Positions 56,202 to 62,254 of a stretch of 64,000 bases of DNA are shown piece by piece. The translations under genes and the position numbers were made by a program. The notes below the pieces were generated by a model, which worked only from the letters and a program-made list of their open reading frames with translations, was not told where the DNA came from and did not search any database. Every line of letters starts with the position of its first letter. Within the stretch, counting starts at the first letter, position 1. Origin of the DNA: a virus; the IMG/VR virus record IMGVR_UViG_3300032287_004484, positions 62,001 through 126,000 of that record. One strand, written 5' to 3'.

Positions 56202-58031
56202 ATGGATGAAGAATTATTTAGAGAACAATATAATAATGATTTAATTGCATCAGAAAAAATGTGCAAAGAAATAGATTATAAATTAAAACAACTTGGTAAT
56301 CTTGCTAATCCTGATGTAAACATGGTTAAAACAGTTGTTAGAGAATGTACTAATATAGAAGAAAAAAGCGCTTTCTTATTTTTCGCACGAGCTTTTGGAT
56401 ATGTTCCGCATCCAACTCGGGGAAAAGTTGCGATGTATGAATCTATGTATAACTGGCAAAAAATAGCAGCTGTTAAGTTTTTAACTGGAACTAGATTTAT
56501 TTCTAAAAAGGTTCGTCAAATTGGTGCTACTACTTTTGTTTCTACTTATTTTCTTTGGAGAGCACTTTTTTATGGAAATACTAACGCTTTTATATTATCT
56601 CTAGGATCAAGAGAATCAACAGACGTTTTAAGTAGAGTTACTTTTATGTATAATGCTTTACCAGCTTGGCTTAAAACTCCTCTGCTTGAAGGTGCAAAAA
56701 CAAGTATAATGTTTAAGAATAATAGTAAAGTAATTGCTCTTCCAGGTACTCCAGATGCTCTTAGAGGTAGATCTTCAACTTCTATTATTTTAGATGAGTT
56801 TGCTTTTTTAAATCACGCTGATAAAATATTATCAGCAGCTGTTCCATCTCTTTCTATGGGGTTTTTAACTCCATTTACAAACTCTTCTCTACCATCTCAA
56901 TTATTTATTATTTCTACTTTTCCATTAGTAGATAGTGATAATAATGAATATGTAAGATTATATAAAAATTCTATATATGGTGATTCAGAGTTTAAAATCT
57001 TATCTGTTTTTACAGATGATGTTCCAGAGTATAGTAATTCTAGTTGGCGTAAAAGTATGCTAGAAACTCTAGGTCCAAAGAAATATGCTGTGGAAATAGA
57101 AGGAAAAATGAACATGACACTTGATAATTCATTTTTCCCAGAACACGTTATTGCTGAATTACAACCAAAACAACCACTTAGAACTGATTTCTTATCTCAA
57201 GATGATGTTGATGAATATGGATTTCCTGTTAATATTGATTCAATAACTAGTGCTAGAGAAAATTATGATCCATCAATTGGATATATTAAAAATTTATGGA
57301 TTTGGGCAGATCCATTACCTAAAAAAGATTATGCAATAACAGTAGACGTTTCTGCTGGTGTTGGTAACGATTATAGTTCTATTCAAATTATTGATTTAGA
57401 AGAACAAAACCAAGTAGGAGAATATTATTCTAATAAAGTATCTTTAGAAGATTTTAAGCATATAATAAGGGATATTGCTTTTTTCTATAATAATGCCAAA
57501 CTATCAATAGAAAGAAATTCTCTAGGTGCACCTCTTTGTTCTTTCTTTTATGAAACTTTAAAATATGAAAATTTTTATATTCATAGAAAAGGTAAAAATT
57601 CTTATATTGAAGGATTTCCTGTAACTAGTGCTAATAGAGGAGCAATATTAGCAACTCTACAAAGTGCTCTAATAAAAAAAGAAATAACTATTAATTCTAT
57701 TAGAACAATTAATGAAATTAGAACTTTCGTTTTTTTACCAAATGGAAGACTTGGCGCTAGTATTGGAAATCACGATGATTTAATTTTAGCTTTAGCACAA
57801 TATGCTTTTTTAAGAGAAGTATTTTTTAATACAGCAACTATGTCTGACTATGGAGAAGATTTTTTAAGAAAAGTTGAAATGGAAGCTGAAAAAATTAAAA
57901 TAAGACACTATATGAATGGTCCTCTTGCTGACGAGGATGATGCAGAAAGAGAATTACAAAATATTATGGCTGGTTATGCGGTTGATCCACATTCTTTAAG
58001 ACAGTGGAAAAACTCAATGAAAGATTTTTAA
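56202..58031 (+). CDS. Terminase large subunit, T4 gp17-like
   Basis: A 609-aa packaging motor subunit (ATPase and headful nuclease). ATPase: a deviant Walker A, K103-V-R-Q-I-G-A-T-T111, with the Lys at the front of the loop instead of before the Thr pair, and Walker B S-I-I-L-D198-E199, with FIISTF (about 235-240) as the coupling segment. Nuclease, RNase H fold: D382 in AITVDVSAG, E437 in LSIERNSLGAP, and D525/D526 in GNHDDLILALAQYA. Length equals T4 gp17 (610 aa). The final four bases overlap the convergent 122-aa gene. Confidence 0.95.
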   Translation: MDEELFREQYNNDLIASEKMCKEIDYKLKQLGNLANPDVNMVKTVVRECTNIEEKSAFLFFARAFGYVPHPTRGKVAMYESMYNWQKIAAVKFLTGTRFISKKVRQIGATTFVSTYFLWRALFYGNTNAFILSLGSRESTDVLSRVTFMYNALPAWLKTPLLEGAKTSIMFKNNSKVIALPGTPDALRGRSSTSIILDEFAFLNHADKILSAAVPSLSMGFLTPFTNSSLPSQLFIISTFPLVDSDNNEYVRLYKNSIYGDSEFKILSVFTDDVPEYSNSSWRKSMLETLGPKKYAVEIEGKMNMTLDNSFFPEHVIAELQPKQPLRTDFLSQDDVDEYGFPVNIDSITSARENYDPSIGYIKNLWIWADPLPKKDYAITVDVSAGVGNDYSSIQIIDLEEQNQVGEYYSNKVSLEDFKHIIRDIAFFYNNAKLSIERNSLGAPLCSFFYETLKYENFYIHRKGKNSYIEGFPVTSANRGAILATLQSALIKKEITINSIRTINEIRTFVFLPNGRLGASIGNHDDLILALAQYAFLREVFFNTATMSDYGEDFLRKVEMEAEKIKIRHYMNGPLADEDDAERELQNIMAGYAVDPHSLRQWKNSMKDF

Positions 58032-58396
58032 TTTAATTCTAATTTTTTAAAAATAAAAGAATCTAGAAGTTTTTTATAATTAGAAATCATTAATAAAATA
58101 TAATTTAGTTTTGAATTTTTAACATTTAATAATTTTTCTGTTATTTGATGTGGAATAATCCAATTATCGTTAAAAGATTTTTTTATTTCTTGAATATCTT
58201 CTTCTATATTATTTAAATCTTTATTTTTGATTTTATTTTTTATAGAATCAATTTTATTTTTCCAATCTTTTAAAAATACATCGCTAACTGATCCTTCTAA
58301 ATTAGAAAGATCAGAAGTAAATAAATCAAGTTCTTTATTTAGAATATAGAAAAAATTATTGTTTTCTATTTCTTCTAAATAACTAATTAATTTCAA
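58028..58396 (-). CDS. Unknown helical protein in the SpeD operon
   Basis: A 122-aa, mainly helical, acidic protein (SDLSNLEGSVSDVFLKDWKN, then NIEEDIQEIKKSFNDNWIIP) without recognised family. It follows the second SpeD-like gene directly on the minus strand (stop and start are adjacent), so it is probably co-expressed. The end overlaps the convergent terminase gene by four bases. It shows no catalytic motif; a partner role for the SpeD-like proteins is only a guess from operon position. Confidence 0.6.
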   Translation of the reverse strand: MKLISYLEEIENNNFFYILNKELDLFTSDLSNLEGSVSDVFLKDWKNKIDSIKNKIKNKDLNNIEEDIQEIKKSFNDNWIIPHQITEKLLNVKNSKLNYILLMISNYKKLLDSFIFKKLELN

Positions 58397-58762
58397 TTAA
58401 ATTCCTCGCTCAGAAGAATTTATTATTTTTCCATTACAACTAAAGAAGTTTTCGGTAAATTTTAAGACTAAATTAGGATCATATTCTGCACAAGAAAAAA
58501 CATCTAAATATATTTCTCCAATATTTTCAGCAAAGTGTGCTGTTATAGAACTTGTTTCTATTGCTTGTAATACTGTTATTCCATATAATTTTTCATCATG
58601 AGAAGCAAATTTTTCTATCCATGTATTTCCGTACATTTTCATTTGAATTTCATCACATAATTCTTTAATAAATATTTTAACAGTTTCTGGATCACTTATT
58701 TTTTCTTTATTAGCGCTTTTAAAATCAAAAGCACAAGATAGTCCCCAAGCATTTTTATTCAT
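58397..58762 (-). CDS. SpeD-family pyruvoyl enzyme homologue, divergent (copy 2)
   Basis: A 121-aa member of the SpeD/AdoMet decarboxylase fold. The processing segment is IETSSITAHFAE, with S71 as likely pyruvoyl precursor, H76 and C91 (LDVFSCAEYDP) at exactly the same spacing (5 and 15 residues) as S68/H73/C88 in the neighbouring copy and as S63/H68/C83 in the well-studied T. maritima enzyme. The residue before the Ser is Thr, where classical SpeD has Glu, and the segment after it lacks the HTYPE-type sequence. SpeD homologues of this divergent type, known in phages and in other bacteria, include enzymes that decarboxylate ornithine or arginine. Substrate here is unknown. It overlaps copy 1 by eight bases, so the products may act together. 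Confidence 0.78.
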   Translation of the reverse strand: MNKNAWGLSCAFDFKSANKEKISDPETVKIFIKELCDEIQMKMYGNTWIEKFASHDEKLYGITVLQAIETSSITAHFAENIGEIYLDVFSCAEYDPNLVLKFTENFFSCNGKIINSSERGI

Positions 58763-59123
58763 CTAGAGTTCCTCTATTTATTTTAATTATTCTTTTTTCT
58801 TTTGGTTTTAAAACTCTTACTATAAAATCCATTCCTACTTCTGGTTTACAAGTATTTCCACAAGTAAAAATATCAAAATGCCCATAACCAAATTCTGGAT
58901 ATGTATGTACTGAACAATGTGATTCTGATAATATCCAAACTCCAGTTACTCCTTGCGGATCAAATTTATGTTCAACATATTTAAGCGGAGTTGCTCCAGT
59001 TTCAATGGAAGCTAATCTTAATAATTCTTTTATTTTTTCTGGATCATCTAATATATTATTTTGACAATCCCATAAATCAGCTACAATATGTTCTCCATTT
59101 ACAAGGTATTCTTCCTTTTCCAA
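58755..59123 (-). CDS. speD: S-adenosylmethionine decarboxylase, SpeD (copy 1)
   Basis: A 122-aa proenzyme matching bacterial SpeD: WILSESHCSVHTYPEFGYGH with cleavage expected between E67 and S68 to give the pyruvoyl cofactor, H73, and C88 in FDIFTCGN. Class 1B enzymes supply decarboxylated AdoMet for spermidine synthesis. It is found in several marine T4-like phages as a metabolic gene. The start is unusual: only a TTG at 59123 fits the frame after an upstream in-frame TGA, while the excellent AGGAGG (59137-59142) sits three bases before an out-of-frame ATG (59133). A short overlapping frame would end after 18 codons. Either TTG is used with a long spacing, or translation is controlled, or the sequence has a single-base difference there. 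Confidence 0.88.
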   Translation of the reverse strand: MEKEEYLVNGEHIVADLWDCQNNILDDPEKIKELLRLASIETGATPLKYVEHKFDPQGVTGVWILSESHCSVHTYPEFGYGHFDIFTCGNTCKPEVGMDFIVRVLKPKEKRIIKINRGTLDE

Positions 59124-59164
59124 TCTTTTTCATTTTCCTCCTAAAAAAAAAGTAAAAGTTTTTT

Positions 59165-61144: not shown

Positions 61145-62254
61145 TTATAAAATTTTAGTTATAGATAATTTTATTTCTTCTTGTGAACATTTTATGTATT
61201 TATCAATTAAATTGTTCAAAAAATTATCATCTATATTTCTATTACTAATTTCAAAAGAATCATCAATTAATAATTTATCTAAATCGCTTTTATCTTTAAT
61301 ACCTTCTTCAACATACACTGAATTATGTATAAATGGTATTACTCCTCTTGTTAGGGCTTCTATAAAGCGAGGAGAAAAAGCATTTTTATCATAACCTGGA
61401 AGTATTAAAGTATATTTAGATTTTTTTAGATATTCAATATATTCTTCTTTAGTAATGTTAGTAAAAATATTTTTATATTTATCTTGTAAAAATATATTAC
61501 TATTTTGTAAAGAATAAAATTTATCGTATAATTTTTGAACATACTTTCTATCTGGAGTTAAACAAGTAAATCCAATACACCAATCATGTTCTTTTTTATT
61601 ATCTAATTCAAGATGTTCTGAGTGATAAATTTTAATAAAAGGATGTTGTTGAGTTTTAAAAAGTTTAGAATCATAAATAAAAAATCTACGATAATCTAAT
61701 TCTTTCACTAAATCTACATCACTATGATTACTTTCTTGTGGATCATGTAAGAAATGATTCCAAGGTATGTTAAAAGTTTTTACAAAACTATAATGATTAA
61801 TAAATTTTTGAGTTGTTTTGCGAGTGCTCATAAAATTAATAAATTTATTTTCTTTAATTCCTTTATTTAAAAAATTAGGTTTATAGTATTTTACTCCACT
61901 GCTCATAATACCAAAAACTTCTACAAAAGACACTGGATCTATTATTCCTTTTAATTTTTGGTATCCTTCCATACATTCAGAAATAAATTTATCCCAAGTT
62001 GTGATTTCTTTTTTTTCATTCATAATGAAACAATCAAAAATACTATTAAGATATTTATCGTGATTTTTAACATGATTAAAGTTTTCAAAATCTGATATAA
62101 GCGCAATATTATATTGATCTTTAAATTTTGTTAACCAATAAGTATAAGTTATATATGAATGTTTTGATGCGTTCCTTAAATTAAAGGGTGCGCCAAAACC
62201 AACTACAATAGTTTTTTTATTTTGATTAAAAGAATTCTTTTTCTCAAATCTCAT
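61145..62254 (-). CDS. GT-B-like glycosyltransferase
   Basis: A 369-aa protein. The C-terminal third contains YTLILPGYDKNAFSPRFIEA and LTRGVIPFIHNS, the arrangement found in exostosin/GT47- or GT10-like enzymes (S/P-x-R-[FIL]-x-E-[AS]-[LI]-x-x-G-x-[IV]-P-[VI]), where the Glu contacts the sugar nucleotide. The N-terminus begins with basic residues and a Rossmann-like strand (KTIVVGFGAPFNLRNASKHS). It overlaps the epimerase gene by four bases, suggesting that it uses a sugar made by that enzyme. Acceptor could be phage DNA, virion protein or host surface polysaccharide. Confidence 0.68.
   Translation of the reverse strand: MRFEKKNSFNQNKKTIVVGFGAPFNLRNASKHSYITYTYWLTKFKDQYNIALISDFENFNHVKNHDKYLNSIFDCFIMNEKKEITTWDKFISECMEGYQKLKGIIDPVSFVEVFGIMSSGVKYYKPNFLNKGIKENKFINFMSTRKTTQKFINHYSFVKTFNIPWNHFLHDPQESNHSDVDLVKELDYRRFFIYDSKLFKTQQHPFIKIYHSEHLELDNKKEHDWCIGFTCLTPDRKYVQKLYDKFYSLQNSNIFLQDKYKNIFTNITKEEYIEYLKKSKYTLILPGYDKNAFSPRFIEALTRGVIPFIHNSVYVEEGIKDKSDLDKLLIDDSFEISNRNIDDNFLNNLIDKYIKCSQEEIKLSITKIL

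Follow-up and report, generated by a model that had tools for sequence, protein, structure and literature searches.

Phages need spermidine, and they carry single polyamine genes. Some phage homologues of the AdoMet decarboxylase SpeD have been reported to decarboxylate ornithine or arginine (PMC9992855), and SpeD-derived decarboxylases are also found in bacteria and archaea, the ornithine enzymes having been named SpeDC (PMC10407285, J Biol Chem 2023). The phage SpeDC proteins LBP and UCP01–UCP04 and the phage SpeD enzymes are SpeD-fold, pyruvoyl-dependent ornithine and AdoMet decarboxylases, as predicted for the two proteins considered here. In the available portions of PMC9992855 they are described singly, and one phage is named with more than one polyamine enzyme, an AdoMet decarboxylase (AdoMetDC) plus a spermidine synthase (SpdSyn), whereas the present locus has SpeD and SpeDC together. 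The same clustering is known in bacteria as speD1–speD2 (speD plus speDC), for example in Ca. Atribacteria, Anaerolinea thermophila and Ca. Sumerlaeota (PMC10407285), and in four Atribacteria stretches collected here (L158, L177, L196 and L246) speD and speDC likewise overlap or lie end to end. These bacterial clusters carry speE, whereas in our case the pair is located on a phage whose record lacks it. SpeD and SpeDC also occur fused, in Desulfotignum phosphitoxidans and Ca. Omnitrophica, with SpeD first and SpeDC second as in the gene order of the phage, but as one polypeptide instead of two overlapping genes; there is also a known case of a fused protein whose second half is dead (PMC10407285). 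In trypanosomes, a catalytically dead AdoMetDC paralogue activates its partner (PMC5201418). A literature search, with bioRxiv preprints, many subscription papers and supplements outside its scope, returned no report of a phage harboring SpeD and SpeDC together. With both enzyme types known in phages and the clusters known in bacteria, their joint presence in a phage looks like a modestly new combination.

The locus lies in a window of 64,000 nucleotides with a G+C content of 25.7% (positions 62,001 to 126,000 of IMG/VR record IMGVR_UViG_3300032287_004484), the whole virus record comprising 290,274 bases. Two class 1b SpeD-family genes are read there on the minus strand, from 59123 to 58755 and from 58762 to 58397. 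Copy 1 (speD, 58755..59123) starts with TTG (GTG in the related contig L004) and encodes a predicted class 1b AdoMet decarboxylase of 122 residues, and copy 2 (speDC-type, 58397..58762) starts with ATG and encodes a predicted pyruvoyl-dependent L-ornithine decarboxylase of 121 residues. They share eight bases on that strand (ATGAATAA, 58755..58762), which hold the stop codon of copy 1 and the start codon of copy 2. That two different SpeD-family genes stand side by side with such an overlap had been proposed in a preliminary description of the sequence, and it is borne out: both proteins match the Pfam family PF02675 (AdoMet_dc; 117.4 bits for copy 1 and 58.7 bits for copy 2, with a cut-off of 25 bits), they are the only matches to it in the 290,274 bases, and they share 23% identity over 100 aligned columns. 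Two other, related virus contigs (L003 and L004) harbor the same gene pair with the same eight-base overlap, so that the arrangement is not due to chance. A GAGG sequence is located eight bases 5' of the copy 2 start and, like the overlap, is common to the window, L003 and L004, which suggests that translation of the two genes may be coupled. The neighbors of the pair include a T4-type terminase, a C5 DNA methylase and a nucleotide-sugar epimerase; the terminase matches many T4-like phages, with less than 30% identity in the 20 matches listed. Directly 3' of copy 2 there is a gene of 122 codons (58028-58396, minus strand), with longer counterparts in L003 (194 residues) and L004 (205 residues), for whose product the family profile search gave no match over the cut-off.

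The motif regions of the two proteins are VWILSESHCSVHTYPEFGYGHFDIFTC in copy 1 and LQAIETSSITAHFAENIGEIYLDVFSC in copy 2. The classical motif claimed for copy 1 in the preliminary description is indeed present, with Glu preceding the serine, the H-T-Y-P-E run and Cys at +20. Its further claim, that copy 2 keeps Ser, His and Cys at identical spacing but replaces the Glu by Thr, can also be read from the alignment, as the distances from Ser to His (+5) and from Ser to Cys (+20) are the same in both; H-F-A-E-N stands in copy 2 where copy 1 has H-T-Y-P-E. Copy 1 is an ordinary, canonical class 1b SpeD, and its predicted activity is that of an AdoMet decarboxylase. It passes the equivalog profile TIGR03330 (122 bits, cut-off 75.65), matches the Thermotoga maritima AdoMetDC 1tlu in a phmmer search (E 4.6e-26) and has none of the four residues diagnostic of SpeDC. 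It keeps SESHCSVHTYPEFGYGHFDIFTC, with the processing Ser, the catalytic His (+5), the Cys (+20) and the Pro that has been reported as a mark of bona fide AdoMetDC (PMC10407285). Matches to copy 1 were found in 146 of 50,697 records of a phage collection. In Bacillus phage vB_BcoS-136 (L255, NC_071049), the annotated SpeD gene has 1,074 bases (357 residues in BFVD), and the match to copy 1 spans about a third of it.

Upstream of copy 1 (59077-59141, minus strand) a Shine–Dalgarno sequence, GGAGG at 59137-59141 (GGGGG in L003), is followed three bases later by an out-of-frame ATG at 59133, which opens a frame of 18 codons overlapping the copy 1 start; the TTG of copy 1 lies ten bases further on. 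This ATG and its spacing are identical in the window, L003 and L004, with frames of 18, 11 and 11 codons, respectively. The small frame possibly exerts translational control on the AdoMetDC, and it is also possible that the element is a mere ribosome-binding site with an A-rich spacer.

Copy 2 fails the equivalog test for AdoMetDC, scoring 26 bits against TIGR03330, below the same cut-off. It keeps, at the spacing found in AdoMetDC, the residues for self-processing and catalysis, Ser71 (codon 58550-58552), His76 (58535-58537) and Cys91 (58490-58492). They lie on the minus strand within a catalytic stretch (58490..58552) and are equivalent to S63, H68 and C83 of T. maritima in the numbering of PMC10407285; Ser71 marks the predicted cleavage site and would be the source of the pyruvoyl group. 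In addition, copy 2 has the complete set of Gln66 (Ser-5), Thr70 (Ser-1), Phe77 (His+1) and Tyr85 (Cys-6), the four residues considered diagnostic of SpeDC in PMC10407285, their positions having been derived by applying the text of that paper to our alignment. Outside the pattern used to search for SpeDC, W6, G7, M41 and G61 of copy 2 are invariant in an alignment of 55 SpeDC rows. An AlphaFold2 model built from that alignment has a mean pLDDT of 96.5, and its best fold matches in the PDB are to T. maritima AdoMetDC (TM 0.83, 18% identity); a PDB sequence search with copy 2 returned unrelated matches and no SpeD chain. The SpeDC of Ca. Electrothrix aarhusensis has been assayed as an ornithine decarboxylase (PMC10407285). 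Its presumed counterpart in our collection, L203, was matched to it by organism and neighboring genes, not by accession: genes with a PLP-decarboxylase domain and of the saccharopine-dehydrogenase family lie downstream of it, in agreement with the description in PMC10407285. The L203 protein has the same four residues, as the search pattern required, and likewise scores below the TIGR03330 cut-off (34.6 bits).

Among the AdoMetDC references, the processing Ser is preceded by Glu in those of T. maritima, S-PM2, P2559S and phiYS40, which lack the full set of four. The SpeD of Sinorhizobium phage phiN3 is a special case, since it groups with the ornithine decarboxylase clade and yet is a bona fide AdoMetDC by complementation (PMC9992855). 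By tblastn score, it ranks first among the matches of copy 2 in the phage collection (30.5%); unlike in the window, the annotation of phiN3 shows no further SpeD-like gene within 4 kb of it. Because phiN3 shares Gln, Phe and Tyr with copy 2, distinguishing the substrate of copy 2 from that of phiN3 leans on a single diagnostic residue, Thr in copy 2 and Asp in phiN3. Copy 2 could accordingly be imagined as a second AdoMetDC like that of phiN3, perhaps regulated differently, given that its relative shows this activity while grouping with SpeDC. Such a role appears very unlikely, as the residue before the serine is acidic in all five AdoMetDC references (Glu in four, Asp in phiN3) and a second such enzyme beside copy 1 would be redundant.

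The placement of both proteins was studied in two trees. A quick tree of 120 rows, in which many forks are open, including the deep ones around copy 2, and several branches are long, places copy 2 with the SpeDC proteins and copy 1 with the AdoMetDCs. Since the SpeDC rows had been collected by motif, a tree of 43 rows, picked by hand from the 120, was rebuilt without the motif columns. There, copy 2 forms a lineage of its own with the orthologues from L003 and L004; this lineage falls among SpeDC proteins of bacteria and archaea (97/98), and copy 1 groups with AdoMetDC (99/98). The comparison with characterized homologues proposed in the preliminary description thus gives copy 2 a place in the SpeDC clade. 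Together with the residues, this makes its assignment as a SpeDC-type protein, with predicted L-ornithine decarboxylase activity, well supported at the level of sequence. Some arginine activity is possible by analogy with the phage SpeDC UCP01, which acts on arginine too (PMC9992855).

UCP01, with both its ornithine and arginine activities, also lends something to the proposal that copy 2 is a SpeDA-like arginine decarboxylase, or acts on both ornithine and arginine, and thereby provides a host agmatinase or deiminase with agmatine. So does the homologue of pelagiphage HTVC201P, an assayed arginine decarboxylase (PMC9992855), which copy 2 also matched in the phage collection and which has the same Gln and Thr. 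However, HTVC201P has Ser and Gln in place of Phe and Tyr and two extra residues between His and Cys, and it branches with HTVC021P in a clade separate from copy 2, as the one assayed arginine decarboxylase in the tree. We regard arginine as an unlikely main substrate, and the gene neighborhoods described below also argue against it.

An approximately unbiased (AU) test rejected a tree in which the six proteins (copies 1 and 2 of the three contigs) are held as one clade (p-AU 0.006). This rules out a recent duplication within the phage, and with the tree positions it indicates that the pair represents two gene lineages brought together. Comparison of the window, L003 and L004 gave dN/dS ratios of 0.11-0.16 in copy 2, as against 0.18-0.24 in copy 1 and 0.08-0.23 in the terminase; these values come from a counting method at dS of 0.67-1.05 and are hence rough. 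Copy 2 is under purifying selection and, for that reason, is not a degraded gene. The preliminary description had considered that copy 2 might group with inactive, degraded copies of copy 1, which is not what was found. A decayed duplicate of copy 1 would fit the common fold, the adjacency and the weaker PF02675 score, but the catalytic residues are kept, dN/dS is lower than in copy 1 and the joint clade is rejected; on the dN/dS and the AU test this reading was discarded as extremely improbable.

The recurrence of the pair was addressed with a degenerate DNA pattern of the SpeDC motif, used instead of related-locus searches (copy 1 in viral contigs and an alignment in genome contigs) that gave no matches. 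The pattern recovered at least 120 virus stretches and at least 117 genome stretches, all carrying the motif by construction and forming a sample of unknown bias. Both flanks exceed 1,500 bases in 62 of the 120 virus and 54 of the 117 genome stretches, and the counts of pairing and of SpeE are lower bounds because many stretches end near the gene. In 13 of the 120 virus stretches listed, SpeDC has a SpeD-like gene next to it, in either gene order, and both motifs are intact in 11 of these pairs. The other two are L097, where the partner of SpeDC is a weak match (54 bits) without the motif, and L127, where the SpeDC-like gene (L127:4385-4744) has Arg instead of the processing serine (ETRNI). 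In L127 the SpeDC may be dead and the neighboring SpeD live, or the Arg may stem from an error in the sequence. Of the 117 genome stretches listed, 20 contain a SpeD-like gene apart from SpeDC (adjacent to it in 8), and 10 encode a fused protein. A SpeE-like gene accompanies all 20 pairs and 9 of the 10 fusions in these bacteria and archaea and 1 of the 87 single SpeDC genes, that is, 29/30 against 1/87 (Fisher p 4e-25, uncorrected for genome relatedness). A SpeB-like neighbor occurs in 1 of the 117 and a SpeE-like neighbor in 30, which speaks against the production of agmatine by copy 2.

SpeE is found in 1 of the 13 pairs and in none of the 107 single SpeDC genes among the virus stretches listed. 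In the whole records of 16 viruses (the 13 with pairs plus L003, L004 and L013), most of them short fragments and four with a PF03237 terminase, spermidine synthase family matches were found in two, L019 and L013. The virus contig L019 carries SpeD, SpeDC and SpeE in succession with four-base overlaps, among phage-family neighbors, and its SpeE passes TIGR00417 (309 bits, cut-off 249.55). In L013, where a terminase family is present, SpeD overlaps a SpeE-like gene of 226 codons, whose product is over both Pfam spermidine synthase cut-offs and below those of NCBIfam, and SpeDC lies about 3.6 kb away on the opposite strand.

Overlap, co-conservation and the occurrence of the same domains as fusions could also point to an obligate hetero-oligomer, a form of which the preliminary description had raised as well, in which copy 2 would act as a prozyme-like regulatory subunit with or without an activity of its own, in the manner of the fusion with a dead second half (PMC10407285) and of the trypanosome paralogue (PMC5201418). 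This seems quite improbable, since copy 2 keeps the processing and catalytic Ser, His and Cys along with the SpeDC substitutions, and 107 of the 120 virus SpeDC genes listed are devoid of a neighboring SpeD; with its own processing serine, copy 2 appears unlike a dead prozyme.

Microcystis phage MaAM05 (GenBank MW495066, taken as PhiMa05; L006 and L256-L261) was considered as a second phage with the pair and rejected, on account of its bacterial-chromosome-like annotation and a second SpeD without any SpeDC residue. Ribosomal proteins, secE-nusG-rplK-rplA, flagellar genes, smc/scpAB, several tRNA ligases and rpoD are annotated there, as well as TCA-cycle and vitamin genes, and the product names in the pieces examined, which cover all but 240001-240230, include no capsid, portal, tail or terminase. 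The genes of its speD-speD-speE-speB cluster are those reported for Vampirovibrio (PMC10407285). In PMC13157829, MaAM05 is considered a jumbo phage that encodes six ribosomal proteins, and proteins of the capsid, portal and tail are reported for it. MW495066 looks like a piece of a bacterial chromosome, perhaps one from Vampirovibrionia that carries a prophage near 207-217 kb.

The remark in the preliminary description that no aminopropyltransferase gene is visible in the window extends to the whole record: neither spermidine synthase family, PF01564 or PF17284, was found in the 290,274 bases, a record that is possibly incomplete, although both searches were positive in control genomes. Searches of the same bases for arginase/agmatinase (PF00491), deoxyhypusine synthase (PF01916) and PLP-dependent ornithine/arginine decarboxylase (PF02784) also found none, the first of these being a further point against an arginine decarboxylase. 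The two-step polyamine route suggested earlier therefore stands as to its two inputs, for which the SpeDC residues, the clade and the company of SpeE elsewhere speak, but not as a complete pathway, as the ornithine-to-spermidine module of the phage record at hand lacks SpeE.

The explanation that we consider probable is that the phage encodes a polyamine supply pair, with copy 1 as SpeD and copy 2 as SpeDC, and that the host SpeE completes spermidine synthesis. Copy 1 would process itself into a pyruvoyl-dependent enzyme yielding decarboxylated AdoMet. Copy 2, with the same fold, would cleave itself between Thr70 and Ser71, convert Ser71 into the pyruvoyl group and decarboxylate L-ornithine to putrescine. 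An assumed host spermidine synthase would then join both products into spermidine during infection, and the gene overlap would keep the two enzymes in step. Because SpeE is absent from the phage record, it must be supplied by the host under this model, and phages with AdoMetDC alone would likewise depend on the host enzyme. A more elaborate version, rather improbable as it stands, is an oligomer built from both SpeD and SpeDC, each active site regulating the other, as an unfused counterpart of the fusions, tuned by the phage through the upstream frame before copy 1. Bacterial SpeD–SpeDC fusions have been proposed as the ancestors of eukaryotic AdoMetDC.

The phage pair would supply both substrates of spermidine synthase, and it recurs in several virus contigs in both gene orders. 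Such a recurring pair suggests that putrescine and decarboxylated AdoMet both limit some infections. The pair constitutes a small, directly testable module of two or three genes, all three of which are present on L019.
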